A stretch of 64,000 nt of DNA. Source: Lysobacter spongiicola DSM 21749. Lineage in GTDB: Bacteria > Pseudomonadota > Gammaproteobacteria > Xanthomonadales > Xanthomonadaceae. Position 1 is the stretch's first letter. Every line of letters begins with the position of its first letter. Position numbers and translations under genes: made by a program. The notes beneath the pieces were generated by a model that was given only the letters and a program-made list of their open reading frames with translations, searched no databases and was not told where the DNA came from. Shown in pieces: positions 13,217 to 30,090 of this stretch. The DNA lies in NCBI RefSeq assembly GCF_900167055.1, contig NZ_FUXP01000004.1, positions 1-64,000 on the forward strand, given 5' to 3'.

Positions 13217-13269
13217 GGAACACGCGATTGGCGAAGTGCTTCGCAGCACCGTCGCCTAGAATGCCGGCC

Positions 13270-14081: not shown

Positions 14082-14435
14082 TCACTGCATCCCAGCTCCC
14101 GCAGCCTGGAGCAACGCTTCAAGTTGGGCGCACGTTGCCGACCGTTCCGCCTCCGACGCAGCCTCCCAGTTCGACCGGACTTCTGCTTCTGCAGCTGCGA
14201 ACGAGCTTTCAAAGCTACCCATGTCGAAGCCCTGCTCTGCGTGGCGTGCCTTCTGCCCCTGCTTGAGCCTGTCGAGCTCGGCCTGGGAGTAGTGCTTGCA
14301 CAGACGGGCCGTTTGATGCGCGGCGCCCCCGAGCTTCGCCAGCTGCGTACCCATATCCTCTTGGGCAGATACCGGTCCCGCACAGAGCATTCCCACTACG
14401 ACAAACGAAACGAGTGCTAAGGTTTTCCTATACAC
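14082..14435 (-). CDS. Small secreted two-cysteine helical protein (family copy A)
   Basis: 117 residues from a GTG at 14435, preceded by GGAGG at good spacing. An N-terminal signal peptide (about 1-24, ending VSA-Q) is followed by a charged helical domain with two cysteines 56 residues apart. The pattern is C-x5-AELDRL ... G-x5-FE ... ATCAQLEALL. The same pattern occurs in the lipoproteins at 28649-29104 and 29641-30090. Function unknown. It appears to be the last gene of the Tad-locus transcription unit, 142 bp after a lipoprotein gene. Confidence 0.65.
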   Translation of the reverse strand: MYRKTLALVSFVVVGMLCAGPVSAQEDMGTQLAKLGGAAHQTARLCKHYSQAELDRLKQGQKARHAEQGFDMGSFESSFAAAEAEVRSNWEAASEAERSATCAQLEALLQAAGAGMQ

Positions 14436-14577
14436 GGTGCTTCCTCCATACCTGCTGAGATACCGATATCTCTCACTTGCGGGATCCGGACGCGTCCACG
14501 CACCGTGACCCAACGAACATGCGACACGATGTTTGCTCCGCCTGGACATCGGGCTCGGAACCCGTCTGCTTCGAACG

Positions 14578-15384
14578 CTAGGGAGCGGTCGCGACATTGG
14601 GGATGTCGATCGGTTCGCCCCAGGCCGAGAAGTGGCTGACGGTCGATGACTCCAGGATCGGCGACTGCGAGGACGTGATCGCCTTGATGGGGAGGAAGGT
14701 GCTGTCCACCCATATCTTGAGCTGGGTGACGGTAATACCCGCCAGCTGGTAAGGCGCCGCACATCGGAATGCGAAAGCCTGGTAGTCGGAGAACTCGTCT
14801 CCCTCGACGGAGCTGAGCCCTTCGCTTACCCACTCGGGGCAGATGCCGTAGCCACCGGCGATGGCCGCCGGCTGCATGGTCGCCCGCAGCCCCCTCAAGG
14901 TGGCTGTTGCGATCCTGACCGCCGGATTCGATGAAGATTCGTCCTCCTGGAGCCAGTGCCCGTCCGGCCCCCGCGCCCAGCCGCCGCTATCGGTGACCAC
15001 CATGCGCATCGTATCGTTGCCGACCACCACCGTGAGTCGCGGCCGGAACTGGTATTGCGTAGTGGTGGTTTCCATCTCCGGCCCCTCCAGCACCATGACG
15101 CCGGTGCCCGCGGCAATCATCGCGGTGGCGATGCATTCGCCGAGCGCCGTACCCGCAACGATGGCGTCGGGATCGCGGCTGACCGTGCAGGCCGGATCGG
15201 CCTCACTGGAAGGCTCGGCTCCGGCGTCGTGGATACTCGCGCTATCTGCAACCCTCCGTGGAGACGGCGTCTCGCCCGTGTCATTGCACCCTCCCAAGAG
15301 CAGGACAAGCATTGAGGTAGTTGCAACGTAACCGAAACCTGGTCGAAGGATGCGGCGGGAGCTGGCGCGGTACTGCAAAAGCAT
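14578..15384 (-). CDS. Predicted lipoprotein of unknown function in the Tad locus
   Basis: 268 residues from the ATG at 15384. The signal sequence ends LLLGGC (Cys33 lipobox), followed by a Ser/Asp/Glu-rich linker. The C-terminal part is a compact domain with three or more cysteines (YGICPEW, FRCAAPYQ) and a segment WVDSTFLPIKAITSS resembling LolA/LppX-like lipoproteins in rhythm only. Not recognised as a family. It follows the OmpA lipoprotein gene by 49 bp on the same strand, so it is probably co-expressed. Confidence 0.6.
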   Translation of the reverse strand: MLLQYRASSRRILRPGFGYVATTSMLVLLLGGCNDTGETPSPRRVADSASIHDAGAEPSSEADPACTVSRDPDAIVAGTALGECIATAMIAAGTGVMVLEGPEMETTTTQYQFRPRLTVVVGNDTMRMVVTDSGGWARGPDGHWLQEDESSSNPAVRIATATLRGLRATMQPAAIAGGYGICPEWVSEGLSSVEGDEFSDYQAFAFRCAAPYQLAGITVTQLKIWVDSTFLPIKAITSSQSPILESSTVSHFSAWGEPIDIPNVATAP

Positions 15385-15433
15385 GGGTGCGTCCTTTCGT
15401 CGGGCGCTGGCAACGGTTCGCGGCCGGCGCAAA

Positions 15434-16483
15434 TTAGATTGCCACGAGCTCAACACGTCTGTTCCTGGCTTTTCCCGCTTCAGTAGCGTTGTCGGCCACT
15501 GGTTCGTCTTGACCAAAGCCCCTTGCCTGCAACCTGTCGGCGGAAACACCGCGTGCAGTAAGCGCCGCGACAACGGATGTCGCACGTTCTTCCGATAGCT
15601 GCTGGTTTCGCGCAGCGTCCCCGGTATCGTCGGTATGCCCGTTGACGGACAGCCTGAGCTCGGGGTCGTTTCTGAGCAACTCGGCCACCTGCTCAATCTG
15701 AGGTTTTGACTCTGGCAGGATCTCGGCCTTGTCGGTTGCGAAGTTGACCTCCAAGGCCACCTTCCCAAGGCTGTCGAGCTGCTGCTTGAGTTCGCTGGCA
15801 GGCAGTAAGGCTGCCGTCGGCTTGAAAGCTTCCGACTCGACCACCATCCAGGATCCACTGGCGGTATTGCCGACGAAGTGGAGCCAAATGTTGCGGTCAG
15901 CCCGGCGGACCAGCCAGGTCAGCACCTTTTCGTTGTAGATATCGCCACGGCCGGGGGAGTAGGCCTGTTCCTCACCCCACGCCTCGACCACCTCGTTTGG
16001 TGGTTTCGACTCGGTGACTTTCACCCCGCCGGCCTCCGAGACCTGATGGTCGAGGTTGCGGATCACTTCCAGGAGGGACCACCCCTTGCCGGGTTCAGCG
16101 TGAACAAAAGACTCGAAGATCCGACCTTCGACCCATTCAAGCCGGTCGCCGGTCCAGACTGCGACCCGGTCGAACTCGCGAACGGGGATCGGCTTGTTCG
16201 GATTGCCATAGCCAGCGGGCAAGGTGAAGTAGGGGAAGTCGCCGAGTGCGACCTCGGATACCGGAACCGCACCGACCTCGAATCCTTCAGGGGCGGCGGG
16301 CCCGGCGGCGGCGGCTTCGAGCACCGGCTCGACCGGCGCGGCGCCCGGAGCGGCGCCTTCGCGGGTTGGTCCGGCCGAGCGCTCCTCGCCACCAGGTCGG
16401 TCCCCGCCGCACGCGGCCACACCGAAGGAAGTCAGGACGGCGAGCAGCGCAGTGGCCAGGTGGCGCCGGGAAAACGGGTTCAT
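15434..16483 (-). CDS. OmpA-family lipoprotein (Tad-locus copy 1)
   Basis: 349 residues from the ATG at 16483, with AGGAG upstream. The lipobox is VAAC (Cys25), followed by an Ala/Glu/Pro-rich linker. The central domain is shared with the paralogue at 30212-31291 (VSEVALGDFPYFTLP, VAVWTGDRLEWVEGRIF). The C-terminal OmpA/MotB peptidoglycan-binding domain covers about 225-349 (VNFATDKAEILPES, VNGHTDDTGDA, FGQDEPVADNATEAGKARNR). It probably links the outer membrane to peptidoglycan around the pilus secretin. Located 25 bp after the preceding gene. Confidence 0.85.
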   Translation of the reverse strand: MNPFSRRHLATALLAVLTSFGVAACGGDRPGGEERSAGPTREGAAPGAAPVEPVLEAAAAGPAAPEGFEVGAVPVSEVALGDFPYFTLPAGYGNPNKPIPVREFDRVAVWTGDRLEWVEGRIFESFVHAEPGKGWSLLEVIRNLDHQVSEAGGVKVTESKPPNEVVEAWGEEQAYSPGRGDIYNEKVLTWLVRRADRNIWLHFVGNTASGSWMVVESEAFKPTAALLPASELKQQLDSLGKVALEVNFATDKAEILPESKPQIEQVAELLRNDPELRLSVNGHTDDTGDAARNQQLSEERATSVVAALTARGVSADRLQARGFGQDEPVADNATEAGKARNRRVELVAI

Positions 16484-16508
16484 CGGATGCAACTCCTTTT
16501 GGATCTGG

Positions 16509-17159
16509 TCATTTGGTTCTGCCATTGCGCGCGTCGGCCTCGGCTTGGTCGAGTGTCCTCGGAAGCTCGAAGAGGTCCGGCGACATCGGTGTGTGTTCCA
16601 CAGCAGTGACTTTGTATCCACGTACGTCGCCGCGGCCGGCCAGCCTCCCCTTGAATGCCAGCAGTAGGCCCGTTTGGGGATCCACCCACAAGGTGCCCGT
16701 GTCGGTGCCGTCAGGACCTCGTCCGTCCGCGTCGCGGTAGCGCCATTTCCGGACCAGGCGATTGGCGACCACATCGACCGATTCCGGCTCGCAACGCGCT
16801 GCCATGTCGGCACAGGGCGCCTCTGGATCCAGTCTGAAGGTTGTCCATCCGGGAGCAGGCACCGGCAATGCGACATCGCCACTGCGGCTGACCATCCATG
16901 CCTGCCGTGCGTCCGCTGTGGTGTCTGCCAGCAGATATCCGTCCTCACCGCTCCTCGATTCGAAATCGATGCGCAGGTGGGAGCCGGACAGGCGGATGGT
17001 CAGCGGCAGGATCTCAGTTTCGCGTACGGGGCCAATCCCCCGGGCCTCGGCGTGGAGTGTGACGTCGCGATGTGGGACATCGTCACTCGCAACGGCAGCG
17101 ACACCGGACGTGGCAATCCAGATGGACAGGCTGTACGCGACAAGAGCCGTACTCCGCAT
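16509..17159 (-). CDS. Secreted protein of unknown function, Tad locus
   Basis: 216 residues from the ATG at 17159, one base after the TadE-like stop codon. An N-terminal signal peptide covers about residues 1-24. The body is beta-rich (ILPLTIRLSGSHLRIDFES, GTLWVDPQTGLLLAFKGRL), with one Cys pair (PCADMAARC). The shape recalls DUF4412-like periplasmic proteins, but this is not a firm identification. Position between tadE and the OmpA lipoprotein gene suggests a periplasmic role in the pilus system. Confidence 0.6.
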   Translation of the reverse strand: MRSTALVAYSLSIWIATSGVAAVASDDVPHRDVTLHAEARGIGPVRETEILPLTIRLSGSHLRIDFESRSGEDGYLLADTTADARQAWMVSRSGDVALPVPAPGWTTFRLDPEAPCADMAARCEPESVDVVANRLVRKWRYRDADGRGPDGTDTGTLWVDPQTGLLLAFKGRLAGRGDVRGYKVTAVEHTPMSPDLFELPRTLDQAEADARNGRTK

Positions 17160-17160
17160 G

Positions 17161-17856
17161 TCAGCGCAACCCTGACGGTTTATCAAGGGGCGATTGCATT
17201 CGCACGATTGCGTAGGACTCGAGCCTCATGCGGCTGTAGTGACCGAGGGAGCAACGGAGATCCTGCCGCCAGGTGTCCCCCTCCGTGATCAATCGCGAGA
17301 AGCCGCCAATGACGCGGTCGACGAATGGCACGATCATCGGGTAGCAGTAGCGCACCCGGATCTTAAGGACGTTGGCATCTTGAACGCTCACGCCGCTGCT
17401 TCCCACCCGGTTATCGCGAAAGGCGAGATTATCGTTCGGCAAAGCTCGCCGACCATCCCATTGGCGCTCGGCGAACTCGTTCCAGGCTTGCCGGGTCGGG
17501 CTGACAATATCGATATCGCTGTACAACGCCACGTCCGCACCAGCTTTAGCCATCCCTTCAATGGCACCGCCTACTCCCGGCGAATCCGCATACAGCGGTG
17601 CCAGTCCCCGAATCAGCCCTTCACGAATTTCGCCGATGTCCGCCCCGTTCACCGCTCCACTCCGGGCAGCCTCAAGGGTGGCGTAGTCGAGCGTGGCCTT
17701 TGCCCGGTAGATGAGCATGAACTGGAATGCGGCCAACACCAGAAATAGAAAGGCAGGTACGACGATGATGAACTCCACCAGCGACTGACCTCGCTGCGAT
17801 CGACCAGCCGGACCCGCAGCTCCCGAAGGATTGATCACGTTTCGATCGGTTGCCAT
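17161..17856 (-). CDS. tadE: TadE-like pilus assembly protein
   Basis: 231 residues from the ATG at 17856. A class III prepilin-type segment GQSLVEFIIVVPAFLFLVLA has Glu at position +5 after the Gly, then a hydrophobic helix and a typical TadE continuation (YRAKATLDYATLEAARSGAV). The C-terminal domain is periplasmic. In Tad systems TadE is a minor pseudopilin processed by TadV. It overlaps the DUF192 gene by 22 bp and precedes an unknown secreted protein gene. Confidence 0.85.
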   Translation of the reverse strand: MATDRNVINPSGAAGPAGRSQRGQSLVEFIIVVPAFLFLVLAAFQFMLIYRAKATLDYATLEAARSGAVNGADIGEIREGLIRGLAPLYADSPGVGGAIEGMAKAGADVALYSDIDIVSPTRQAWNEFAERQWDGRRALPNDNLAFRDNRVGSSGVSVQDANVLKIRVRYCYPMIVPFVDRVIGGFSRLITEGDTWRQDLRCSLGHYSRMRLESYAIVRMQSPLDKPSGLR

Positions 17857-18155
17857 TGCAGCACCTCTCCTCTTACCGGGGCGATCCGCGACAGACCGCC
17901 GGCGCGAAGTTCGACAGTGGCGTACGCCCCACGCTGGCCACATGTTCGCCAAGGCGACAGATCTTCTCGCCACCCGAGCACCTCGCCGTCACGGCCAAGG
18001 AACAACACGTCCAGCGGGTACGCCATCCAGAAGGTATGCACCGAGTTGCACGGAGACAGCCACAGGCCTTCGGCGGCGTCACCGGCCAAGGGGCGGCGAC
18101 CCAGCAGTCCGCGCAGTCGCTGCCACCAGCGATCAGCGCGCCACATCCGCGGCAC
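17835..18155 (-). CDS. DUF192 family protein
   Basis: 106 residues from a GTG at 18155, about 10 bp after GGAGG; ATG at 18146 is an alternative. The conserved DUF192 core is present: SPCNSVHTFWMAYPLDVLFL, then REDLSPWRTC and AYATVELRAGG. The function of DUF192 proteins is not established. It sits between tadC and tadE in the pilus operon. The open frame continues far upstream as an antisense-phase shadow of tadC and should not be annotated as one long gene. Confidence 0.75.
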   Translation of the reverse strand: MPRMWRADRWWQRLRGLLGRRPLAGDAAEGLWLSPCNSVHTFWMAYPLDVLFLGRDGEVLGWREDLSPWRTCGQRGAYATVELRAGGLSRIAPVRGEVLQWQPIET

Positions 18156-18190
18156 GACACACTGTCCTCCACGGCTGAGGCGGCCGGCTC

Positions 18191-19081
18191 TCAAAGGATC
18201 CCCTGTTGCTTCATCTGCAGGTAGATGAAGTACGCCAGCACCAGGAAGATCAGCGGGAAGAAAAACATCACCAGCGGCAGCATCATCTTGACCGGCGCTT
18301 CCAGCGCCAGCTTCTCGGCACGCAGAAAGCGCTCCTCCCGTCGCTGGCCAGCCTGCGCGCGCAAGGCATCGCTCAGGCTCGCACCTACGCGGTCGGCCTG
18401 GATCAGGGAACTGGTGAAGTTCGAGATCTGGGAGATATCCATGCGGTCCGCCATGCGCCGCAGCGCCTCCGCGCGCGGCAGTCCGGCACGCAGGTCCCGC
18501 AGCATTCGCGCGAACTCCTGCCCGAGCGGCCCTGCCGGCCCCTTCTGGACGGCCTGCTCGATTGCACCTGTGATATTCAGTCCAGCCTCCACCGCCATGG
18601 TGATGAAGTCCAGATAGGTCGGCAGGTCCCTGATGACGTGCTTGCGACGCAAGTTGCGCTTCTCGCTGAGCCACAAGGTGGGATACATCCACCCGAGCGG
18701 TGCACCGAAGACCAGGCACATCAGAAGGGTCGGAAGACTCGCGCGACCCAGCATCATGACCAGCAACGCAAAGAACAGCGAAACGATGACGGCCGCGACC
18801 AGCCGCAGCCCATAAAGGCTCTCCGGTGTCAGCACGTAGTCCTGGCCGGCCGACTGCAGGGCTCGATGGGTTTTTTCCAGTTGCGCGGATTTCAACCGCG
18901 GCGCGATCGCCAGCGTGGTCGCGGTTACCAGCGGCCAGATCAGCTGTAGACCCTTGGGCAGCGGATCCTGGAAATAGCGGTCTTCCGCCGGTACCTGTTG
19001 CAGGAGGCCACGTGTGGCCACCATCGCCAAGCCCACTGCGGCGGCGGCGGAGAACGCAACGAGGATAAGCAACATGTTCAT
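18191..19081 (-). CDS. tadC: TadC-like pilus assembly inner-membrane protein
   Basis: 296 residues. An N-terminal hydrophobic segment, a second region around 85-130, and a C-terminal pair (VKMMLPLVMFFFPLIFLVLA) surround a cytoplasmic type II secretion F domain (about 135-265: DLPTYLDFITMAVEAGLNIT, EALRRMADRMDISQISNFTS). This is the GspF-like platform protein that pairs with TadB under the TadA ATPase. Its start overlaps the tadB stop as ATGA. Confidence 0.88.
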   Translation of the reverse strand: MNMLLILVAFSAAAAVGLAMVATRGLLQQVPAEDRYFQDPLPKGLQLIWPLVTATTLAIAPRLKSAQLEKTHRALQSAGQDYVLTPESLYGLRLVAAVIVSLFFALLVMMLGRASLPTLLMCLVFGAPLGWMYPTLWLSEKRNLRRKHVIRDLPTYLDFITMAVEAGLNITGAIEQAVQKGPAGPLGQEFARMLRDLRAGLPRAEALRRMADRMDISQISNFTSSLIQADRVGASLSDALRAQAGQRREERFLRAEKLALEAPVKMMLPLVMFFFPLIFLVLAYFIYLQMKQQGIL

Positions 19082-19926
19082 ATGTCAATCGTCATGATCT
19101 TGCGGCACATGCGGTAGCCCAGATATTCCATCACCGCGCAGATCCCGATTACCGACCAGCCGATTGGGGTGTGGAACATCGGGCGCATGGTCTCGGGATA
19201 GGCAAAGGCAAGGAAGGCCACCATGGCGACCGGGAGCATCGCCATGACGATCCCCTGCAGCCGTCCCTGCGATGTCAGCGCCTTGACCTTGCCTTCCATG
19301 ATCAGCCTGCGCCGCAGCGTCTCGGCAAGGATCGTGAGGCTTTCGGCGAGGTTGCCGCCAACCTCTCTGGAAATCTGTACCGCAGAGACGAAAAGTTTGA
19401 CGTCCTGCACCGGCACGCGTTCGGCAAAGTGGTCGAGTGCCTCTTCGGTCTTCACTCCCATGCGCTGCTCCCGCAGCACCAGCGCGAGCTCCTGCGCCAA
19501 CGGGGGCATGCCATCGGCGACCATCGCCTCCATCGCCGGTCCGAAGCCGACACCGGCCTTCATGCTGCCGGCAAGCATGAGCAGGCCATCCGGCAGTTGC
19601 TCCTGGATCCTGTCTATCCGCCGCTGACGCATCCATACGTAGATCTTGCGCGGCAGAATGGCCAGCAGGAGCAGGGTTGCCACCGGTAGCAGCAGGTTAC
19701 CGGTGCCGATCCACAGGATCAGGGGCACCAGGACGAGCACGGCCATGTTGATCGCGAACAGGCTGCCGGTGTCCATGAACATGAACATGTCCGCCAGGTT
19801 TATTCGTGCCTGATTGACGAAGCTCTCCTGATAGCGATGCATGAAGCGTTCGCCGGCCTGTACAGCGACGACGCCGGCGGCAGCAACCCCCAGGAAGACC
19901 AGCACCCCGATCAGCCACACGTTCAT
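19078..19926 (-). CDS. tadB: TadB-like pilus assembly inner-membrane protein
   Basis: 282 residues. Hydrophobic segments lie near the N-terminus (LIGVLVFLGVAAAGVVAV), around 50-90 and at the C-terminus (VMAMLPVAMVAFLAFAY). The type II secretion F domain covers about 115-240 (QLPDGLLMLAGSMKAGVGFG, SREVGGNLAESLTILAETLR). With TadC it forms the inner-membrane platform. It overlaps tadA by 4 bp upstream and tadC by 4 bp downstream, so the three are tightly coupled. Confidence 0.88.
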   Translation of the reverse strand: MNVWLIGVLVFLGVAAAGVVAVQAGERFMHRYQESFVNQARINLADMFMFMDTGSLFAINMAVLVLVPLILWIGTGNLLLPVATLLLLAILPRKIYVWMRQRRIDRIQEQLPDGLLMLAGSMKAGVGFGPAMEAMVADGMPPLAQELALVLREQRMGVKTEEALDHFAERVPVQDVKLFVSAVQISREVGGNLAESLTILAETLRRRLIMEGKVKALTSQGRLQGIVMAMLPVAMVAFLAFAYPETMRPMFHTPIGWSVIGICAVMEYLGYRMCRKIMTIDI

Positions 19927-21632
19927 GCGGCAGTCCCGGGCTTTCGGAAGATCTCAAGATCGACCGGCACGCCCCGGTCCGCGAGCTCTTCGTAGAACTC
20001 GGGCACGGCACCGGTGGCAACGAAATCACCTTCAACCTTGCCGCCCGCACCGGCATGGTTGCGCGCTCGAAATAGAAACACATCCTGCATCTGGATGGTT
20101 CCACTCTCCAGACCGGTAATTTCGGTAATGTGGCTGACCTTGCGCGAGCCACAGGGGTAGCGACGCTGGTGCACGATCAGATCCACGGCAGATGAGATCT
20201 GCTCGCGTACCACCGTCATTGGCAGGTCCATGGACGACATCAGCACCATGACCTCCAGCCGGGAGAGCGCCTCACGCGGGTTATTGGCATGGGCGGTGGT
20301 GAGTGAGCCTTCGTGGCCAGTGTTCATCGCCTGCAGCATGTCCAGCGCTTCGCCACCGCGGCACTCGCCTACGACAACCCGGTCCGGTCTCATGCGAAGT
20401 GCGTTCTTGACCAGATCCCGAATGGTGATCTGGCCCTTGCCCTCAAGGTTGGGCGGCCGCGCCTCCAGGGCAACGAGGTTGGGCTGCACCAGCTTCAATT
20501 CGGCGGCGTCCTCGATGGTGACGATGCGTTCGTGCTCCGGGATGAAGTTCGACAGGATGTTGAGCAACGTGGTCTTGCCTGATCCGGTTCCTCCGGTAAC
20601 CACGATGTTGCGCCGCTCGCGCACCGCGATGGTGAGGAACTCGAGCATTTCCCTGTTCAACGATCCGTAGGTGAGCAGGTCTTCGCCGGTAAGCTTGCGT
20701 TTGGCGAACTTTCGGATGCTGATGCTGGCGCCCCGCAAAGCCACCGGCGGAATGATCGCGTTGACACGCGAACCGTCTTTCAGCCGCGCGTCCACCATCG
20801 GAGAGCTTTCGTCGATCCTGCGGCCCAGCGGAGTCACGATGCGCTCGATCGCCGACAGCACCGCCCGCTCACTCGTAAAACACACCTCCGACTTTTCGAT
20901 GCGGCCGTTGCGCTCGATGTATATCTGGTCGAACGCGTTGACCATGATCTCCGTGACCGTGTTGTCCTCGATCAGGTCCTCCAGCGGGCCCAGGCCAATT
21001 GCTTCGTCCAGCACCTGTTTTGCCAACCGACGCGGATTGATGGTCTTGGGCAGATCCGCGAACTCCCGGGCCATGATCTCGTCGATGAGCTTCATTGTGG
21101 CTTCGCGGAGTGCGTCGTCACTCAGGCTGCGCACGTCCAGGCGACGCAGGTCCATCTGCTTGACCAGGGCACCGTGCACGCGTGCGCGCCAGACGCTCAT
21201 CTCGGGAGGCAGGTCGGCAGCGCGTGCGATTTCGCGGGAGTCCGATACCACCACGTGCTCCTGCGCGGGTGCGACCGCAGCAGGCATCGGAGCCACCGGT
21301 TCGTTCGCCGCCACGGCCGGCGCGCTTCGTCGCTGGTCTTCGTTCAGGACGCGGATCCTGTATTCGCCGATTTCGACCAGGTCGTTCCCAGTCAGAGGAC
21401 CGTGGGTGGTCTTCACCTTCTGTCCGTTAACCAGCACTGAGGCGCGGCCGCCACCAAGCGACTCGATGAATATGCCGTCTTCCATCCGCTTGAGTGCCGC
21501 GTGGCGGCTGCCGATGTTCCAGCCTTGCAGGACGACAAGGTTGCCGTCACTCCGACCGATTCCACACTCCCGATGGAGGCAGCGCACCTCGCGGGGGTCC
21601 CGGTTACCGGTTTCGATCAGAACATTGAACAT
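19923..21632 (-). CDS. tadA: TadA/CpaF pilus ATPase with N-terminal FHA domain
   Basis: 569 residues. The N-terminal ~97 residues form a forkhead-associated domain (GIGR at 24-27, SRH at 42-44, NGQ at 69-71, ending [11 protein letters not shown]). After a Pro/Ala linker comes a CpaF-type secretion ATPase with Walker [10 protein letters not shown] (347-355), the Asp/His box region and [15 protein letters not shown]. The ATPase should drive Flp assembly, and the FHA part would bind phosphothreonine. The fusion is unusual against the plain Caulobacter/Aggregatibacter ATPase. The gene lies 8 bp after the secretin gene. Confidence 0.9.
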
Positions 21633-21640
21633 GCGCCCAC

Positions 21641-23155
21641 CTACTGTTGGAGCTTGCGACCGAACTCGCCTTCGAACGACTCGCGGATCTGGTGGCCCTG
21701 CTCGATACGATCGAGGTTTTCCGCCGAAGCGGGATCCACGGTGCGGGGTGTGACAAAAACCACCAGATCGGTCTTGTTCGCGCGGAACTGATCAGAACGG
21801 AAAAGCCGTCCCAGGATCGGGATCTCGCCCAGGATCGGGAACTTGTCAGCCGACTTCGCGGCATTGATATCGGTAAGTCCGGAGATGACGATCGTTTCGC
21901 CATTGCGGACATTGAACTCCGAACGGGTCCGCCTGGTCAGGAAGCCGGGAATGCCCGCCACGGTGATGCTGGGGTCGATGCGGCTGACCTCGGCCATCAT
22001 TGTGGTGAGGATCTCGTTGGATCCGTTCACCACCGGGGAGATTTCGAGCTTGATGCCGTACTCCTTGAACTCCACTTGGGTCTGGCCGAACAGGGAGGAC
22101 ACCGGGATCGGGAGTTCCCCACCCACCAGGAAATCGGCCTCGCCCCCACTGCGCGCGCTCAGGTGGGGCGACGCCAGCGCGTAGGCCTTGCCCTGGTTGA
22201 CCAGGAGGTTGATGCGCGAAGTGATCGACGTAGCGAGCCCGAAGGCGGTCCGGATCGGATTGGCCATCCCGGCGAACTCATCGTCGTCAAAAGGGCTTCC
22301 GTCCGGAAGTACACGGAACTCCGATGAAGACGAGTCGTAGAGTGCTCCAGCATTCGGGCCATCGATCCGGCTGTCCCAGCGGATGCCGAGTTCTTCCAGC
22401 GCGTTGCGGTCGAACTCCATGATCTGGACGTCCATCATCACCATCGGTCGCATGCCAACGGCGTCGACGCTGCCGAGGTTGACGATGCTCGGGTAGACCT
22501 CGCGCATCTGCTCAATGCGGGACCACTCCCCTTGGCTGATGTCTTGGCCGGTCACCACGACGTTTCCACCAACGATTGAAACCCGGGCGTTGCTGGCGGG
22601 GCTTAGGGTCGACTGCAGCACCCGGGCCGCCTGCCCAAGATTGTCACCGACGATGGTGACGGGTATCTCGCGCTGGCTGCCGTCCTGGAACCAGAGATGC
22701 AATGCAGAGTTGCCAGGCTCGATGGCGATGATGACAAGCTCCCGGCTGCCGAGCGTCTTCACCTCCAGCAGCTTCCCGCTACCCACTGCGACGCGGCGCA
22801 GCGGGGCGTGCACCTCATGCACCACCACCTGCCCCCCATAGAGAGTGAGTTCCTCAGGAAGCAGGCCCTGGCGACCGCCGCCGGCCGCCGAAATCGGCGA
22901 ATGCCCCTGAGTATCCCAAGCCTCGATTTCACTGTTCTCCAGCACGTAGCTCGCGCTTGCGCGCGGGCTCGGCGGTTCCTTGCTTGGTTGCGCGTCGCGC
23001 AGCATCGACTGCGCTTCCGTGACGCTCCGGGGTGGCGACGGTGCTCCATCTTCCTGTCCGGTAGAGGTCGCCGCTGCACCCCCACTCGATATCAGAATCA
23101 TTGATACCAGCACCCACCCACCGGCCTTCCCCTTGGCCACCTTCAGTCGCTTCAA
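21641..23155 (-). CDS. cpaC: CpaC/RcpA outer-membrane secretin
   Basis: 504 residues with an N-terminal signal peptide. The N-terminal pilus/BON-like region (EELTLYGGQVVVHEVHAPLR and following) precedes a type II/III secretin domain (about 300-490), with EFKEYGIKLEISPVV, IDPSITVAGIPGFLTRRTRS and VRNGETIVISGL. It would form the outer-membrane pore for the Flp pilus. The start at 23155 overlaps the cpaB stop by 4 bp. Confidence 0.9.
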   Translation of the reverse strand: MKRLKVAKGKAGGWVLVSMILISSGGAAATSTGQEDGAPSPPRSVTEAQSMLRDAQPSKEPPSPRASASYVLENSEIEAWDTQGHSPISAAGGGRQGLLPEELTLYGGQVVVHEVHAPLRRVAVGSGKLLEVKTLGSRELVIIAIEPGNSALHLWFQDGSQREIPVTIVGDNLGQAARVLQSTLSPASNARVSIVGGNVVVTGQDISQGEWSRIEQMREVYPSIVNLGSVDAVGMRPMVMMDVQIMEFDRNALEELGIRWDSRIDGPNAGALYDSSSSEFRVLPDGSPFDDDEFAGMANPIRTAFGLATSITSRINLLVNQGKAYALASPHLSARSGGEADFLVGGELPIPVSSLFGQTQVEFKEYGIKLEISPVVNGSNEILTTMMAEVSRIDPSITVAGIPGFLTRRTRSEFNVRNGETIVISGLTDINAAKSADKFPILGEIPILGRLFRSDQFRANKTDLVVFVTPRTVDPASAENLDRIEQGHQIRESFEGEFGRKLQQ

Positions 23156-23925
23156 CTTCCACCCCCGATAATGAATTCCACACCGCCCCCCCGGCGCGAC
23201 ACCGGACGAGGTGCCCCCCGCAGGAGTTCACTTTCCGTCAGCCCCTCGAGCTCGAATGCGGTCGCATCCTCGCGCTGACGCAACAGCACGCGCAGGTCGC
23301 CGGCTTTGTCGGCGACCGTCAGCCGTTCCGCCTGCTTGGGCTGGAGCTCCAAGGTCATGGTGGAGAAGCCCAGCCCGCCTTCGTCATTGGAGAGTTCCTC
23401 TCCGACGCGGGTTCCGGTCGCGAGGACGCCTATGTCCTCCAGCAGGGGCATCACGCGCGTATTCCCACCGTCCTCCTCGACCGACATCAAAATGTCGACG
23501 CGATCGCCCGGCGTAACCATGCCCGAGATCGAATTCGTCTCGTCGACCTGCAGCGTGTAGCCAACCCGTCCCTCGCCAATGACACGGGAGAACTGGTCGT
23601 ACAACGGCACCAGCGCCGCGCCCGGCAAGGGCGCGCCCTCACGCACAGGGGCGCGTAGCATCCGGCCCATCAGCTCCGTGTAATTGTCAGGGGTGACCGC
23701 GCCTGCCGGCACGAAGTCGACCGGAACTTCGCGAACCGCGAGGTCCTCCTCGTTGATCACCGTACCGATGTCCATGTCGCGCTTCGGCACCGCGACGGGA
23801 ACCATCTCCGTGTCCGCGTCACGCGTGCGTTCCTCCACTTCGGCGCGGATGTAGCCAACTGCGGCGACCGCGGCGACAAGTCCGAGCAGCGCTGCCACTC
23901 CGATGTAGAGGAAATTCTTGTTCAT
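23152..23925 (-). CDS. cpaB: CpaB/RcpC pilus assembly protein
   Basis: 257 residues from the ATG at 23925. One N-terminal membrane anchor (FLYIGVAALLGLVAAVAAVG) is followed by a SAF domain (about 45-110: VPVAVPKRDMDIGTVINEED, AVREVPVDFVPAGAV) and a C-terminal RcpC domain (TPGDRVDILMSVEEDGG). CpaB works with the secretin in the periplasm. The open frame further upstream overlaps the small pilin gene and is not part of it. Confidence 0.88.
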   Translation of the reverse strand: MNKNFLYIGVAALLGLVAAVAAVGYIRAEVEERTRDADTEMVPVAVPKRDMDIGTVINEEDLAVREVPVDFVPAGAVTPDNYTELMGRMLRAPVREGAPLPGAALVPLYDQFSRVIGEGRVGYTLQVDETNSISGMVTPGDRVDILMSVEEDGGNTRVMPLLEDIGVLATGTRVGEELSNDEGGLGFSTMTLELQPKQAERLTVADKAGDLRVLLRQREDATAFELEGLTESELLRGAPRPVSRRGGGVEFIIGGGS

Positions 23926-23951
23926 TGTTGGCATGAGCAGATCCGTAATGA

Positions 23952-24146
23952 CTAGGGCAGGGGCACTTCGATCCAGGACATCGCAATCACGTCGACGAAC
24001 GCGATATAGGCGTCCCGCACGGCTTGGACGAGTTCCAGGATGATGTTCGGATTGGCCACGATCACCAGCACCACGAACACCAGCAGCACGGTGTACTCCA
24101 CCAGTCCCTGCCCGGCCTGACGGCGACCTCCCCTCGGGTGGCACAT
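23952..24146 (-). CDS. Second Flp-like small pilin
   Basis: 64 residues from the ATG at 24146, which has AAGGGGG eight bases upstream; ATG at 24164 would add six residues. A basic leader is followed by GQGLVEYTVLLVFVVLVIVA, the Flp pattern G-x4-EY plus a hydrophobic helix, and a short C-terminal tail. This matches class III prepilins such as Flp, but it is separate from the main flp gene at 28145-28414. It may be a minor pilin. The gene is 28 bp after an unknown secreted protein gene and ahead of cpaB. Confidence 0.75.
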   Translation of the reverse strand: MCHPRGGRRQAGQGLVEYTVLLVFVVLVIVANPNIILELVQAVRDAYIAFVDVIAMSWIEVPLP

Positions 24147-24174
24147 CCGATGATCCCCCTTCATCGTGTCTATC

Positions 24175-24840
24175 TCATTGCCCGGACTGGTTCGCCACCA
24201 CCACGGTGGCGTCCCCGTCGCGCTGTATCGCCAAGGACAACTGCTGGCCGCCGCGGCTGAACTCCACAAGACAGCTGCTGGCCATTACCGAGCAGCCGGG
24301 GCCCTGTGGCTTCCACTCATCCGCCGCCAAGCGGCTACGGTAGAAAAGATAGTTCTGGCTGGGGCTGAGGGTGTTCCGCAGCGCGAGCGTGCGCGGCTTT
24401 CCCGACAGGTCGAGATACTGGATATCGCTCAAGACCTCGGTGTTGGCCGGCCGCGCCAGCCAGGTTCCCGGCGGGTGGTCAGGCTTCGTGGCTCGTGCAT
24501 CCATGATGCCGACCGTTGCCTCGGTACCGCCCCCCATGCTTTCGATCTGCACCGTAATGTAGTGACGCCCGTCAAAGTGGCCCAGGACCGTGGCGGTGCC
24601 GAGTTCGTTTTCAACCACTTCCCCTGCCCAACGTTTGCGATAGAACTGTTTCACTTCGTCGACGCGGGCGCGTGTGCGGAACTTGCTGGTGCTCATCGGC
24701 AATCCGTTGAACAACATGTTTTCGGCAACGTCGATGGCGTCGGCGTCCTCCGGCAGCGGCACGTCTGGCCAGTCGGCGGCCGAAAGCGGCAGTGCTACAA
24801 CGACCAAAGCACAAGCCAGCCAATCAGGGACGCGGCGCAT
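24175..24840 (-). CDS. Secreted protein of unknown function, Tad locus
   Basis: 221 residues from the ATG at 24840, overlapping the preceding TadE-like gene by 17 bp. A signal peptide (about 1-22, ending PLSA-A) is followed by an alpha/beta domain (VDEVKQFYRKRWAGEVVENE, LGHFDGRHYITVQIESMGGG, GTEATVGIMDA) and a C-terminal part with two cysteines (PGCSVMASSC). Not recognised. Conserved position within the pilus operon suggests a periplasmic accessory role. Confidence 0.65.
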   Translation of the reverse strand: MRRVPDWLACALVVVALPLSAADWPDVPLPEDADAIDVAENMLFNGLPMSTSKFRTRARVDEVKQFYRKRWAGEVVENELGTATVLGHFDGRHYITVQIESMGGGTEATVGIMDARATKPDHPPGTWLARPANTEVLSDIQYLDLSGKPRTLALRNTLSPSQNYLFYRSRLAADEWKPQGPGCSVMASSCLVEFSRGGQQLSLAIQRDGDATVVVANQSGQ

Positions 24841-25675
24841 AACGTTCCAGCCGGTTCTTCGGCACCACGTCCGGTTCGATGTGGCCGATGTCGAGCTCGT
24901 CGAGCACGCCGAGCACGGGGATGACATCCGGGATGTTGACCTCGGGGAGCTTCCCATCCAGATATGACGTTGGCACCAGCGAACGGACCTGAGCGAGTAC
25001 GCTGCGTTCGTGGGGAGAACGACCCTTGCCTCCGCCGGCGGCATTCCATGGATCCGTGAGCAGCACCTGGTGCGATTGCATTTGCAGGTTGATATTGTCG
25101 AAGGGCGCGAGATAGGCGGCCGGCCGACCATCCGAAGTGCGCAGGTTCTGTGGGTTGAGCTGTATCCGGGTACGGATCAGGCCGTTGCTGTTGGGAGGAA
25201 ATTCTCCCGGCGCTTTCTCGAGCATCTCGAAGACGTCGTCCATCACACCCGGGGCGCCGGTGTTTCCGTACGGCTGCAGCCGCACGTCGGCGCGACGCAG
25301 CAACGGCTGGTTGCTGAAGGTGTTGAGGAAGACATCCGGGAGCGGCGAGTTCGCCGGGGGTGCCGTGGGCCGGCTGTTGATTGGCTCTTCTGCCGGCGCG
25401 AAGTGCCGGATCAGCAGTTGCTGTTGCATCTGTGCCCGCTGGGGGACTCCGTAGTCCTTGTGGACCGTTGCCTCCCACGCGGCAGCCCGGGCCATCTGCT
25501 CGCCTTTGTGCTGCAGATGTACGTACTTGGCCAGCACCGGTACCAAAAGGAACAGCGGTACCAGCACAGCGCCCATCACTGCGACTTCAGTAAGGGACTG
25601 CCCCTTCTGTAACCGGCGTCGCCGGGGCTTACTTCTGCCCCCTGCGCACAAGCCGGGCATGATGCCAGGACTCAT
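24824..25675 (-). CDS. TadE-like pseudopilin, long form
   Basis: 283 residues. A basic N-terminus (SKPRRRRLQKGQ) is followed by GQSLTEVAVMGAVLVPLFLL, a class III pilin-like segment with Glu at +5. The continuation YVHLQHKGEQMARAAAWEAT is typical of TadE-like proteins. The large periplasmic remainder has no recognised domain. It overlaps the upstream lipoprotein gene by 4 bp. Confidence 0.75.
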   Translation of the reverse strand: MSPGIMPGLCAGGRSKPRRRRLQKGQSLTEVAVMGAVLVPLFLLVPVLAKYVHLQHKGEQMARAAAWEATVHKDYGVPQRAQMQQQLLIRHFAPAEEPINSRPTAPPANSPLPDVFLNTFSNQPLLRRADVRLQPYGNTGAPGVMDDVFEMLEKAPGEFPPNSNGLIRTRIQLNPQNLRTSDGRPAAYLAPFDNINLQMQSHQVLLTDPWNAAGGGKGRSPHERSVLAQVRSLVPTSYLDGKLPEVNIPDVIPVLGVLDELDIGHIEPDVVPKNRLERYAPRP

Positions 25676-26553
25676 GGCCTCCCACCTTCAGGAGGTGAAT
25701 ATGCAGCGGAATCCAAGGTGCTGCCGACGGTGAAAGCCAGAGTGCGGATCCGGCAGCCATCGCCATCCACCGGTTCCTGCGTCAGGATGATCGATCCGAG
25801 ATTGGATTCGATCGTGCGTCCCGGGCTGCAACCCTCCCCGGTGTCGTGGTCGTCGAACCCAAAGGCGCGGCCTCCAGACCAGAGGCACTGCTCGATCGGC
25901 CCCCTCTCTCCGTCCCCCCGCCATGCCCGACACGGATGCCCCGCGGCTTGAGACGTGCCCAAAGGGCTGAACCCCCCGCGTGGACCGCTTGGCGGATCAA
26001 GGGGATATCGTGGCGGAATCTCAGCGCCAGCGGACATTCCCGGATCCGGGTCGATGCCGGCGCCGCTCGTGGGCTCACCCAGTTCACGGCTCATTCCCAT
26101 GGAACCGTCCATGTAGCTGTAGCGTCCCTGGTGCTTGAGCCGGAACAGGCAACTTCCAGCCGATGCATCACCATCCAGGGCCAGCTTCCACTCATCGTCG
26201 CGGATCACTTCCAGCTGCGGAGAAATCCACATCCTCACGCGGGTGGTTCCCAAGCGCTCGAGCTCGGCACTGGTCAGCTCGTTGATGGGCCAGTCAGTCA
26301 TGCGGCAATTCTCCAGCGCAAACTGGTAGTCCTGTCTCGCTTCGTTCTTGCCATTGACAATCCGCTCCTGGACCTGGTCGAGGTGGATGGGCGGCCAGTC
26401 GACTACGGCCCCATCATCCGCCGTCGCCATGGAAACCGAAATCGCGCTGGCCTGGCTCTCCGCCGCGGGCCCATCGGCGCATGCGGCGACCATGGCTGTG
26501 AGCGCCATGGCCAGGATCCACGTCCCGGGGTCTCCGACTCGGCGCTGAGTCAC
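25672..26553 (-). CDS. Predicted lipoprotein of unknown function, Tad locus
   Basis: 293 residues. The signal sequence has the lipobox VAAC (Cys25), then a long polar domain with cysteine residues (ENCRMTDWP, AGSCLFRLK, QCLWSGG, GEGCSPG) and a Pro/Gly-rich central part. Not recognised. Both its start and stop overlap the neighbouring TadG-like and TadE-like genes by 4 bp, so it is an integral member of the operon. Confidence 0.65.
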   Translation of the reverse strand: MTQRRVGDPGTWILAMALTAMVAACADGPAAESQASAISVSMATADDGAVVDWPPIHLDQVQERIVNGKNEARQDYQFALENCRMTDWPINELTSAELERLGTTRVRMWISPQLEVIRDDEWKLALDGDASAGSCLFRLKHQGRYSYMDGSMGMSRELGEPTSGAGIDPDPGMSAGAEIPPRYPLDPPSGPRGGFSPLGTSQAAGHPCRAWRGDGERGPIEQCLWSGGRAFGFDDHDTGEGCSPGRTIESNLGSIILTQEPVDGDGCRIRTLAFTVGSTLDSAAYSPPEGGRP

Positions 26554-28019
26554 AACACACCTCCGGCAAGACCCAGACTGTTACGCACGGCCGCTGGTGT
26601 CTCGATCAGGCGAGCCTGCCAGTAGGGGCTGAAAAGGCTGCCCCACTCGCGCATGCCGTCATCCCGCCTGAAGAGGTTCAGCGTCGGCGGCCGCTCAAAA
26701 TAGACTTCCGCCGACGCCAAAGTCGAAAGCTGCCGGGTCTGTTCGCGGAGTTCCATCCGCCCGCTGGAGAGACCTACGGTGCTGCTGGTGCGCGCCTCGC
26801 GCATGTCGAGCGTCGCCTCCACAGTGAAGACAGGGCCAGAGCCCGGAGTGCCCTTCTGGCCAGGCTTAAGGTCGTGATAGTCACGAAGTCCCCGGTAACC
26901 AGTGAAGTAAGCGTCTTTGGCCTTGCCGCCATGCAGTGACACATTCGGATCACCTGCCGCGAGCTCGGTGATGTAGCTCCTCGGGTTCATTCCGCCATAG
27001 ATGCCGTAGCGCCTGTTGTCGAACGGCGAACGCCACCCCCGGTTGTTGTTGAAGCCCGGCAGGAAACGCTGGTTCTGGTATCTGTCGACCGCCTGTGCAC
27101 CACCCCAGCCAACGGGAAGTTCGATGTCCCCGCCCAGCCACCTGGGCAGATCGATCTTGATCTGCATGGTGTCCATTGCCACCCAGCGGTCGTAATTGAC
27201 CATGTCGGTCCCGCCGTAGGTGGCGAACTTGACGGGACCGGGAGTTGACTGGCCGCGGTTCCAGCTGAACCGATCGCGCGATTGCATCACCACGTTGCGG
27301 TAGCGATTGAAAGGCTCGCTCTGACCGAAACGCGGCAACCTGTGGAAATCGATGAAATTGCTTTGGGATGCGACCAGTTGACTCCCCAGAACAGTGGCTC
27401 CAAGCGCAGTCAGACGCGCCTGATCGACATTGGCTTTGATTATCTCGTTGGCAGTGAAGATCGCATCCGCCTTGGAGACTGCCGTAATCGCGGTTATCGC
27501 AACGTAGGCCCAGAGTCGGTTGAACTCGTCCAGCACCGTGATCGCGGCCTGGATCGCCTGACGCGCCGGTCCCCGGATCGATTTCAGCGTCTGATCCGCA
27601 ATCTTGAAGGCAGTGGCCAGTATTCGCGCAGGTATGGCTACCGGCGGAAATGGGATGCTGCCCAAAGTCTCGAAAAAGGTCTTGAGGATGAAGGACGCAG
27701 TATTGAGATGGTTCAACCACGAATAGAGGCTGACGAACTGGGCCACGGCCACCTCGTTGGCTACGCGCCCACGATTCATGTACGCCGCGAGGTTCCAGGC
27801 GCGGGCGTTCTGGACCGCCACGCTATAGGCGGCCGCATCCGCGGCGTTGGTCAACTGCACCTTGCGATGTACGACCTGCCCGGTGTTGAACAGGAGCACG
27901 GTGCCCACCGCGAGCACGAGCAGGAACACCATGCCCAGTACGAGCGCCTGGCCTCGGTGCTTGCGGGTGCCGGGAGCAGTACGATTCCGATTCGATAGCA
28001 GTGCTTGCACGCCCATCAC
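26550..28019 (-). CDS. tadG: TadG-like pilus assembly protein
   Basis: 489 residues. A basic leader is followed by GQALVLGMVFLLVLAVGTVL, a TadE/TadG-type helix lacking the +5 Glu, then the typical TadG continuation (KVQLTNAADAAAYSVAVQNA, AYMNRGRVANEVAVAQFVSL). The long periplasmic part has no recognised domain. It is separated from flp by 125 bp containing a strong hairpin, and its stop overlaps the next gene by 4 bp. Confidence 0.8.
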   Translation of the reverse strand: MMGVQALLSNRNRTAPGTRKHRGQALVLGMVFLLVLAVGTVLLFNTGQVVHRKVQLTNAADAAAYSVAVQNARAWNLAAYMNRGRVANEVAVAQFVSLYSWLNHLNTASFILKTFFETLGSIPFPPVAIPARILATAFKIADQTLKSIRGPARQAIQAAITVLDEFNRLWAYVAITAITAVSKADAIFTANEIIKANVDQARLTALGATVLGSQLVASQSNFIDFHRLPRFGQSEPFNRYRNVVMQSRDRFSWNRGQSTPGPVKFATYGGTDMVNYDRWVAMDTMQIKIDLPRWLGGDIELPVGWGGAQAVDRYQNQRFLPGFNNNRGWRSPFDNRRYGIYGGMNPRSYITELAAGDPNVSLHGGKAKDAYFTGYRGLRDYHDLKPGQKGTPGSGPVFTVEATLDMREARTSSTVGLSSGRMELREQTRQLSTLASAEVYFERPPTLNLFRRDDGMREWGSLFSPYWQARLIETPAAVRNSLGLAGGVL

Positions 28020-28076
28020 CTCTCACAGCGTCGACGCGCCGGCACCGCCTGCGGTCGGAGAATTCGGCTGGGAAGA

Positions 28077-28126
28077 GGGGCGCCGCCCTCGGGCGGCGGC
28101 CCCATGCTCGGTGCCGGAAAGCACCG
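28077..28126. other. Hairpin pair between flp and tadG
   Basis: A GC-rich stem (28077-28088 with 28091-28103, core GCCGCCC/GGGCGGC) is followed by a second stem-loop (GGTGC...GCACC, about 28111-28125). Neither is followed by a T-run on the minus strand, so they look like an RNA-stabilising or attenuating structure rather than a simple terminator. The place fits uncoupling of abundant pilin from lower-level assembly genes. Confidence 0.5.
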
Positions 28127-28144
28127 GTACGGCGGCATGAAGGC

Positions 28145-28414
28145 TTACTTGTTGTTGTAAGCGTCCATTCCCTTGGTCTTGTCTGCTTCCGTCTGCGCCT
28201 CGTTGGCCGTGTTCTTGGCGCGGTTCATCGATTGGGTCGCACTCTGGCCGGAAAGCTCCTTGGCCATGCCGGCGACACCACTTCGGACTGTGCCGCCAAA
28301 GGCGGTAATGCCGGCGATGGCTGCGATTGCGATGAGGGCGGTGATGATGATGTACTCGGTCATGCCTTGGCCGCGCTGGCGGCCGGCACCGAAACGGCGC
28401 TGCTTGATCTGCAT
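28145..28414 (-). CDS. flp: Flp-type pilin
   Basis: 89 residues. A short basic leader ends in GQGMTEYIIITALIAIAAIA, the class III prepilin pattern G-x4-EY plus a hydrophobic helix. The mature tail (TAFGGTVRSGVAGMAKELSG, ending NNK) is short and polar. It is the first gene of the Tad operon, so it is likely the major pilin. Cleavage would require a TadV prepilin peptidase, which is not in this window. Confidence 0.88.
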   Translation of the reverse strand: MQIKQRRFGAGRQRGQGMTEYIIITALIAIAAIAGITAFGGTVRSGVAGMAKELSGQSATQSMNRAKNTANEAQTEADKTKGMDAYNNK

Positions 28415-28567
28415 TGGGTGATCTCCCTGCGTGATGGTTCGACTCGGAACTTCCTTCCTGCATCACCCCGGTGACGTTTCACGTCGCTTTATGTCAACCT
28501 AGGGCGTGTCGGAGCCTACAACGGGCGGACCCTAAGTCAACGCCAGCTAAATGACAGTGCCGTGTTT

Positions 28568-28583
28568 TGTGATTTATGTCACG
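28568..28583. promoter_or_regulatory. CRP/Clp-type binding site candidate upstream of flp
   Basis: TGTGA-TTTATG-TCACG, matching the CRP-family consensus TGTGA-N6-TCACA at 9 of 10 positions. It lies about 155-170 bp ahead of the flp start codon and 65 bp after the stop of the upstream lipoprotein gene. In xanthomonads the CRP homologue Clp recognises this sequence. A TTGACA hexamer on the minus strand around 28493-28498 could be the -35, but no good -10 follows. Confidence 0.5.
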
Positions 28584-28648
28584 AAAAATGGCGCATTCAG
28601 GTAGCGGATCGCGGGTTTGGTCACATTTTGTCGTGGGGTGACACGGAC

Positions 28649-29104
28649 TCACTCCAGACTCTCGAGGGTCGATTCGCACGTGTCTGCGCGTCGGGCCGCT
28701 GCCATGGCGACATCGTCGATCTCGACCCGCCGGGCCGCGATCGGCAGCGCTTCCTTGAGCTGGCGCTCGAACTCCTCGGTGGAAGTACCCATTGCCTCGG
28801 CCTGCTTGCTCTGCGCAGCAAGATGAGCCTCCAATTGCGTCTCGGTCGCTCCACAGGCAGCCGCGTACGCATGGGTGGTAGCGGCGGCACCCGCCCAACC
28901 GAGGTCAACCAGCTTGGCGTCCAGCGCGGCAGCGTCGCCTTCGGGCGCGGCCGAAGCGCTTTCGTTCATTGTGGACTCGGGTGCGGTTTCGCCCAGAGGT
29001 GCCCGGGCACCCAGGTCGTAACTCGGTTCTTTGCCTGGGCTGCATGCGGCAACAGCGGCAACCACCAGTGCGGTAGCCAAGGACTTAGAGCGAAACAGGG
29101 ACAT
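28649..29104 (-). CDS. Small two-cysteine lipoprotein (family copy B)
   Basis: 151 residues from the ATG at 29104, with AAAGGAG upstream. Signal sequence and lipobox VAAC (about Cys21) are followed by a Pro/Glu/Ala linker. The helical domain has C-x5-QLEAHL ... FERQLKEAL ... DTCESTLESLE, the pattern shared with the proteins at 14082-14435 and 29641-30090. Function unknown. It lies upstream of flp on the same strand, after the decayed permease fragment. Confidence 0.65.
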   Translation of the reverse strand: MSLFRSKSLATALVVAAVAACSPGKEPSYDLGARAPLGETAPESTMNESASAAPEGDAAALDAKLVDLGWAGAAATTHAYAAACGATETQLEAHLAAQSKQAEAMGTSTEEFERQLKEALPIAARRVEIDDVAMAAARRADTCESTLESLE

Positions 29105-29197
29105 ACGGACTCCTTTCGTCTGGGTGTGGATCGCGCGGCGGGCAGCGGCCCGCAGCACTGCCCCATCATACGAACAGGATTCCGTGAAGCGCAGCTA

Positions 29198-29605
29198 TCA
29201 ACTACGCAGTCTTAATTCCGCGCATGGGCAACCAAAATCCCAGCAGCACCCCGGGCCCAAGCATCATCACGCGGCGAGCCAAAGCGGCACGTCGCTTATC
29301 CCGAACATGCCGCAGCGGAAGGCACTGACCATCTAGAAGACAGGTTGGCACGGGTCAACACGCCTCGGCCCAGTGCGGCAGCGGCGTGGCCGAGTAGAAC
29401 ACGCCGCCGAAGTGGTCGGTAGGAGTCAGGATGAACATTGACACGATCGCAATGTCGTCGGACTTTTGGCGAACCCAGCACTGAAGAAACCCGTTGGGCA
29501 CAGATCACCACACCCCGGAACACATCAGACAAGGTCAAGAAGAGACCTGCACCTCGGTGAACACGATGCGATCAGCAGCAAAGCGGCGAGGGATGTACCA
29601 GCCAG
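29198..29605 (-). pseudogene. Decayed duplicate of the ABC-2 permease 3' end
   Basis: This 0.4-kb stretch, otherwise without a gene, aligns base by base with the 3' end of the intact permease gene at 31377-31790, starting at the same stop-codon position (TCA at 29198-29200). Examples of shared runs are GTAGAACACGCCGCCGA-like and GGTCAGGATGAA-like segments. Identity by eye is roughly 75-80%. The copy has a TAC-to-TAG nonsense change (complement near 29334), a nearby single-base deletion and further indels, so it cannot be translated. The remaining 5' part of the gene is not visible. Confidence 0.85.
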
Positions 29606-29640
29606 CTTTCTAATGCTCCAGTCGTGCGGAATCCGAGGCT

Positions 29641-30090
29641 CTACCGGCTCCAGCGATCGGGCGCCTGCTCAAGCGCGGCACAGCTCTCGGCTACCTCGGT
29701 CGGCGAGAGAGAGTCAACTTGGACCTTGGCCGCGTCCGCCGCTCGTTCGAATGAGCCCGCATTCCCGCCGTCCGCGACAAACCGAATCCTTGCTTCCGCT
29801 AGCTCCGCTTGAAGCTCGGACGAGCTCGCGGTCCCGCACTTTTCAGCCATCAAACTCATCCCCAGGGCCACCTGCAGCATCTCCGTCCCGGCGAGCTCCC
29901 CCGCATCGCTTTCAGAGCGGGCGGCAGTGACCGCCTGAGCCGAGGCGACTGGTGTCGCAGGGCCGGCGGCAGAAGATACTTCTGTGTCTGACCGCGACCC
30001 ACTGTTTTCGGAGCCACTGCAGCCGACGACCGCTAATGCGATAAAGGCGCAGAAGGAAAGTTCGAACGCGGGTGTCTGGCGTCGTTTCAT
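29641..30090 (-). CDS. Small two-cysteine lipoprotein (family copy C)
   Basis: 149 residues from the ATG at 30090. The lipobox is AVVGC (about Cys24), followed by a Ser/Ala linker. The helical domain has C-x5-SELQAEL ... GSFERAADAA ... ESCAALEQA, and the spacing from the first Cys to FE is identical to that in the protein at 14082-14435. Unknown function. No clear ribosome binding site. It follows the OmpA lipoprotein gene at 30212 by 121 bp. Confidence 0.6.
   Translation of the reverse strand: MKRRQTPAFELSFCAFIALAVVGCSGSENSGSRSDTEVSSAAGPATPVASAQAVTAARSESDAGELAGTEMLQVALGMSLMAEKCGTASSSELQAELAEARIRFVADGGNAGSFERAADAAKVQVDSLSPTEVAESCAALEQAPDRWSR

Follow-up and report, generated by a model that had tools for sequence, protein, structure and literature searches.

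The window, a 64,000-nucleotide stretch of Lysobacter spongiicola DSM 21749 (contig NZ_FUXP01000004.1, positions 1 to 64,000), carries a Tad pilus locus with three genes for small, exported, two-cysteine proteins around it. The relationship, fold and possible role of these proteins, P0002, P0003 and P0004, are described here. Read along the minus strand, the order is an ABC transporter gene pair, OmpA_b, P0004, P0003, flp, the Tad genes, OmpA_a, a gene for a 267-residue lipoprotein, and P0002.

14082-14435, minus strand: P0002, small two-cysteine protein, GTG start, cleavable signal (AF2 model).
28649-29104, minus strand: P0003, small two-cysteine lipoprotein, adjoins flp (AF2 model).
29641-30090, minus strand: P0004, small two-cysteine lipoprotein, following an OmpA lipoprotein gene at a distance of about 125 bp (hhalign).

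These coordinates, all on the minus strand, are those of the first-pass annotation and are correct. The proteins are 117 (P0002), 151 (P0003) and 149 (P0004) residues long. Judged from sequence, the signal of P0002 is of the cleavable type (cleavage between VSA and Q), and lipoboxes are present in P0003 (VAA before C) and P0004 (VVG before C), in agreement with the claimed export of all three, two as lipoproteins. By eye, the GTG of P0002 stands behind GGAGG, P0003 has AAGGAG, and P0004 has no clear ribosome site. Cysteine pairs are C46/C102 in P0002 (C22/C78 in the mature protein), C84/C143 in P0003 and C85/C137 in P0004. Their spacing is 56, 59 and 52 residues, within the 52-59 reported; the FE pair follows the first cysteine at 29, 28 and 29 residues, constant to within one residue as described. 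The two motifs of the annotation are inexact: where it has 'C-x5-EL', P0002 and P0004 read C-x6-EL and P0003 reads C-x5-QL; for 'TC-x-LE' the sequences are TCAQLE (P0002), TCESTLE (P0003) and SCAALE (P0004).

The three window copies are divergent paralogues of one family, as the annotation had proposed. Pairwise BLASTP among them gives no significance (E 24, 73 and 0.63), so the shared pattern alone proved little; profile-profile comparison and shared relatives establish the relationship. Searches with the single proteins, in 100 genomes each, gave 4 positive genomes for P0003 and 3 and 2 for the other two, own genome included; one of the 4, G001, matches P0003 over 37 residues of the signal region only. 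Both P0002 (2.9e-7) and P0004 (3.6e-4) match one and the same protein, on contig 39 of G027. In hhalign the P0002 group aligns with the P0003 group (91%, E 9e-7) and with P0004 (94.6%, E 7e-8); between the P0003 group and P0004 the match is weak (32%, E 5e-4, 39 columns). Both cysteines are invariant in all 33 rows of the family alignment. The family is real and without a name in the libraries searched: neither Pfam nor NCBIfam has a family above cut-off for any of the three proteins or of 33 members, in keeping with the annotation, which knew no named family. Sub-threshold matches, among them COQ7 (0.005-0.012), DUF2385 (0.036, best of three members) and MCR_0457 (0.038, best of two) were taken as chance. 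Searching the PDB by sequence with family proteins gave nothing convincing. Rfam and tRNA scans of the window gave nothing.

The family was sought in 297 genomes of the window's own taxonomic family. An eight-sequence profile matched in 33 of them and a 33-sequence profile in 36; in this second search no more than 17 candidates were scored in each genome, which leaves its negatives soft. Profile-building members match their own profile by construction. The alignment rows leave out L074 (G318), a doubtful first-round match, L054, which is truncated, and L059, L060 and L072, which are near-duplicates; weak matches in G142, G167, G194 and G241 are within the count of 36, and G231, weak in the first round, is absent from the second. 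A lipoprotein signal is present in 26 of 38 members by regular expression (two doubtful, one probably missed). Among 200 sampled genomes of the order there were 4 positives, all in the window's own taxonomic family. Among 229 genomes of the class three matched besides the own genome, only G682 strongly (E 1e-16). Around G682, in a second taxonomic family, 61 genomes were searched and 10 carry the gene; their proteins keep both cysteines and, by eye, a plain signal.

AlphaFold models were computed for P0002 (pLDDT 94.6, pTM 0.82) and P0003 (pLDDT 93.3, pTM 0.83), and alignments of 15 sequences were used. Both are confident four-helix bundles, P0003 with one more short helix in front; the all-helical fold agrees with the helical nature first claimed. 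In both models the first cysteine is the first residue after bundle helix 1 and the second is the eighth residue of the last helix. Pilotins of type II secretion of the PulS/OutS type (PF09691; PDB 3UTK, 4A56, 6HCG chain P) likewise have a four-helix domain of about 90 residues, and the modelled cysteines lie as theirs do, at the end of helix 1 and in the second turn of helix 4. There the pair corresponds to the Cys61-Cys115 disulfide of OutS (PMC3276575, in the part of the paper covered). The pilotin hypothesis was recorded before any fold search. In Foldseek against the PDB, ranks 1, 2 and 7 for P0002 are OutS, PulS and PulS (E 2.0 and 2.8 for the first two). In VIA, pilotins stand at ranks 1, 3 and 4 for P0002 (Z 7.5, 7.0 and 7.0; 83 of 93 residues) and PulS at ranks 1 and 3 for P0003 (Z 6.3 and 6.1; 82 residues). 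Cysteine spacing is 52-59 (mode 56) in 47 members, and 54-55 in PulS/OutS. Cysteine-anchored comparison of helix 1 with PulS/OutS gives the best of 13 registers (p 0.011), and Q at C-15, the position of OutS Q46, occurs in 18 of the 47 members. The global hhalign alignment with PulS/OutS puts both cysteines in register, and the hhalign score exceeds those of column shuffles (p 0.003-0.010 global, 0.007-0.018 local).

The Tad locus between the family genes and its neighbours have the following features.

31377-32144, minus strand: ABC-2 permease, conserved neighbour (PF01061, E 1.3e-36).
30212-31291, minus strand: OmpA_b, lipoprotein with OmpA domain (PF00691, E 5.8e-23; lipobox by eye).
29218-29580, minus strand: decayed second copy of the ABC-2 permease gene, 3' end only, between P0004 and P0003.
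28145-28414, minus strand: flp pilin (PF04964 below cut-off, E 0.0085; named from position and relatives).
26550-28019, minus strand: TadG-like (PF13400, E 2.8e-7).
23152-24144, minus strand: CpaB/RcpC (PF16976, E 1.2e-22).
21641-23155, minus strand: RcpA secretin (PF00263, E 2.3e-36).
19923-21632, minus strand: TadA ATPase with N-terminal FHA domain (PF00437, E 1.9e-64; PF00498, E 1.3e-6).
19078-19926, minus strand: TadB (PF00482, E 6.9e-15).
18191-19081, minus strand: TadC-like, named by position (relatives; no NCBIfam match).
17161-17973, minus strand: TadE-like minor pilin (PF07811, E 1.2e-10).
15434-16948, minus strand: OmpA_a open reading frame, OmpA-domain lipoprotein that probably starts inside the frame (PF00691, E 8.6e-23).
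14580-15384, minus strand: lipoprotein of 267 residues, between OmpA_a and P0002 (no Pfam match; lipobox by eye).

The C-terminal tail of the window RcpA has 33 residues and, by eye, is probably a helix. Its best PDB match, by far, is the 8jvb/9wfd secretin (E 3.9e-80). A DUF192 gene (17838-18134, minus strand; PF02643, E 1.9e-12) lies inside the locus between tadC and tadE. Two more unnamed exported proteins, at 25672-26553 and 16509-17186, are conserved in type-A Tad loci as defined below; they have no Pfam match and no convincing PDB match. At 13135-13220, in the gap between the hrpB helicase gene and a TatD-like gene, inverted copies of a short element occur (CTGTAGGAGCGGCTTCAGCCGCGATCG and its reverse complement), resembling by eye a REP-type repeat. 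The decayed permease copy at 29218-29580 is 75% identical over 385 columns to 31396-31777 (E 3e-65), and relatives G005 and G009 have the permease, P0003 and flp without OmpA_b and P0004. Because of this scar and these relatives, OmpA_b and P0004 probably arrived together as a cassette, in a later insertion with partial duplication of the permease gene.

RcpC is above cut-off in 48 of the 297 genomes, 21 of them also with the small gene; it is thus found in 21 of 36 family-positive genomes versus 27 of 261 others. In 19 of these 21 genomes all 25 small-gene copies lie 5.3-14.0 kb from rcpC; in the remaining two the genes are on different contigs. Tad loci were typed in 45 of the 48 genomes (G124, not typable, and G055 and G218 were left out). 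Type A (28 loci) has an RcpA nearer to that of the window, and neither TadD nor TadZ was found in the stretches of these loci. An FHA part was found in TadA in every genome with coverage of the TadA start (all but G139 and G252); G252 was assigned to type A from its TadA, TadB and TadC. Three distant type-A loci (G033, G114, G115) have an RcpA 31-40% identical. Type B (17 loci) has TadD and TadZ in 16, the 17th being a 6-kb contig piece, and no FHA match; the single type-B TadD scanned gives TPR matches. Of the 28 type-A loci 19 have the small gene, of the 17 type-B loci none (Fisher p 3e-6, no true probability since the species are related). Tad-linked copies are restricted to the TadD-less subtype. 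Among 31 whole genomes, G101 and four type-B genomes are the only ones with a clear TadD (at least 47% identity). G101 has two Tad loci: the small gene accompanies a type-A locus on contig 5, and on contig 7 a TadD ortholog lies 6.8 kb from a further rcpC. The RcpA tail is 33-40 residues long in well-aligning type-A loci, resembling an amphipathic helix by eye, and 44 residues, proline-rich and ending in GFSR in type B.

For a second view of the neighbourhood the ABC-2 permease served as unbiased anchor, with 80 named loci, 12 of which contain the small gene. Where Tad genes lie downstream of the permease the small gene is present in 5 of 5 loci, and in 7 of the other 75. In one of these seven, L085, the contig ends shortly beyond the small gene; in a further locus, L118, the Tad genes are upstream of the permease and the stretch lacks the small gene. 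In L091, L110, L112 and L136 the small gene stands before tatD and hrpB with no Tad genes between, an arrangement as if Tad had been lost. Several lineages keep the small gene without Tad.

Many secretins require a pilotin. The best reading of the proteins is that of small, periplasmic, PulS/OutS-like disulfide domains. Their best-supported role here, given somewhat less than an even chance, is that of pilotin-like helpers of the secretin of TadD-less Tad systems. P0003 and P0004 would be tethered to a membrane through a lipid and about 50 linker residues, and P0002 would be soluble in the periplasm. The four-helix domain would be stabilised by a disulfide formed between the two invariant cysteines; it would bind the secretin and pilot it. 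OutS binds 18 secretin residues, which turn helical (PMC3276575, part covered). Lipid and linker in P0003 and P0004 and a nearby secretin gene are points in common with PulS/OutS; P0002-type members without lipid, association with Tad instead of type II secretion, and several copies per locus are differences. The TPR protein TadD is the only Tad pilotin characterised in the literature covered (PMC10499894, in part). In Pseudomonas aeruginosa it is an 11-helix TPR pilotin binding the last four residues of RcpA, and the S-domain of this RcpA is coil (same source). Its common point with the small family is the proposed piloting of a Tad secretin; TadD is absent from type-A loci, the three window proteins have no TPR match, and P0002 and P0003 are modelled as four-helix bundles. 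The Tad-like Kil predation system of Myxococcus xanthus has an FHA-ATPase fusion and no TadD according to the covered part of PMC8460266, which names no pilotin for Kil; by description it is like type A in these two traits. Two outer-membrane lipoproteins are predicted in the Kil clusters. No paper on a PulS/OutS-type pilotin in Tad systems was found in a search that covered few subscription journals. That FHA-type, Kil-like, TadD-less Tad machines pilot their secretin with a disulfide-bonded protein of PulS/OutS fold, often as a lipidated and soluble pair, is rather doubtful.

Several observations weigh against a pilotin-like role. Foldseek matches all stay above E 1e-3 (the best is 2.0), and no pilotin is in the P0003 list up to E 10. 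In VIA, which bears on the pilotin fold of four helices in nested hairpins, the unrelated PNPase and viral ORF140 tie with the pilotins, and Z below 13 is common for helical bundles. Similarity in the region of the second cysteine is not above shuffles (p 0.24). The hhalign probability against PulS/OutS is not significant (0.3-1.3%). PF09691 is not among the matches listed for 33 members (E up to 1; 25 of 26 families) or for the three window proteins; it has no match in 185 genomes of the class or in G000. Given the insignificant hhalign and Foldseek scores on one side and the cysteine register and shuffle p-values on the other, distant homology to PulS/OutS is plausible, short of demonstrated. 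The proteins are not filed under PF09691; no sequence or Foldseek score is significant. Several copies per locus would be unusual for a pilotin. Nine of the 28 type-A loci are without the small gene. Compared with closely related loci that have it, the six nearest of these nine show no obvious difference in the RcpA tail, and in six loci, by eye, no convincing open reading frame for a very divergent copy was hidden between the permease and flp. P0002 and about a third of members are non-lipidated, and OutS needs its lipid (PMC3276575, part covered). Relatives in the second taxonomic family are soluble and Tad-free: no Tad gene occurs in nine stretches of 12-40 kb around G682-group copies, so the family is not bound to Tad. 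The Tad link of the first-pass annotation thus holds as concentration at type-A loci but not as exclusiveness, given these relatives, the gene-less type-A loci, and 15 of 36 positive genomes without RcpC.

Two other roles stay serious rivals; besides them an HdeA-like acid chaperone was considered. One is that of partner of the OmpA lipoprotein, stabilising or regulating peptidoglycan-bound OmpA, with or without Tad and with no secretin contact; this is possible, on balance unlikely. Both genes occur together in 7 of 8 OmpA loci at the permease anchor, and in 4 of 5 among the Tad-less ones, and P0004 and OmpA_b appear to have come together in the window. Genus g28 (7 genomes) keeps the gene without RcpC, in some species beside OmpA and a panE-looking gene. 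However, gene-less type-A loci still have an OmpA gene (L164, L169, L176, L184, L188), and 5 of the 12 small-gene anchor loci have no OmpA beside. The claimed OmpA link is supported in part.

The other rival, equally improbable, is a free-standing general periplasmic protein, carried along at a recombination-prone site of Tad insertion. YacC of Escherichia coli K-12 (PF09691, E 2.5e-9) is its model: a soluble two-cysteine protein of spacing 55 that stands alone, like the family, with no significant sequence relationship to it and an unrelated context. In PMC3542185 (part covered) the GspD secretin was not piloted by YacC, itself of the PulS/OutS family; this is a precedent for this role and a warning against reading function from fold. 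Retention of the gene in the 15 RcpC-less genomes, both states within genera g10, g46 and g51, and the G682-area copies argue for it. Among four close, Tad-less g28 species dN/dS of the domain is 0.03-0.29 (0.38-0.66 in more distant pairs); from the low values the gene is under selection there without Tad. Against such an independent protein stand the window's genus, with the gene in 3 genomes that have Tad and not found in the other 7, and the recurrence of 2-3 copies around one Tad locus (G000, G005, G112, G164, G185). That unrelated small helical proteins share the pattern by chance, as the insignificant BLASTP scores would allow, is extremely improbable and is contradicted by the shared relatives, the profile-profile scores and the one fold of two members.

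A whole Tad subtype in this bacterial family is without TadD, and the small family is a concrete candidate for the missing part. If the pilotin-like role is true, a type II secretion pilotin fold would be at work in a Tad system, and there would be a candidate for the pilotin that the Kil system is reported to lack (PMC8460266, in the part covered). If the role differs, the proteins are still an unnamed envelope family under selection, with an OmpA lipoprotein gene as frequent partner.

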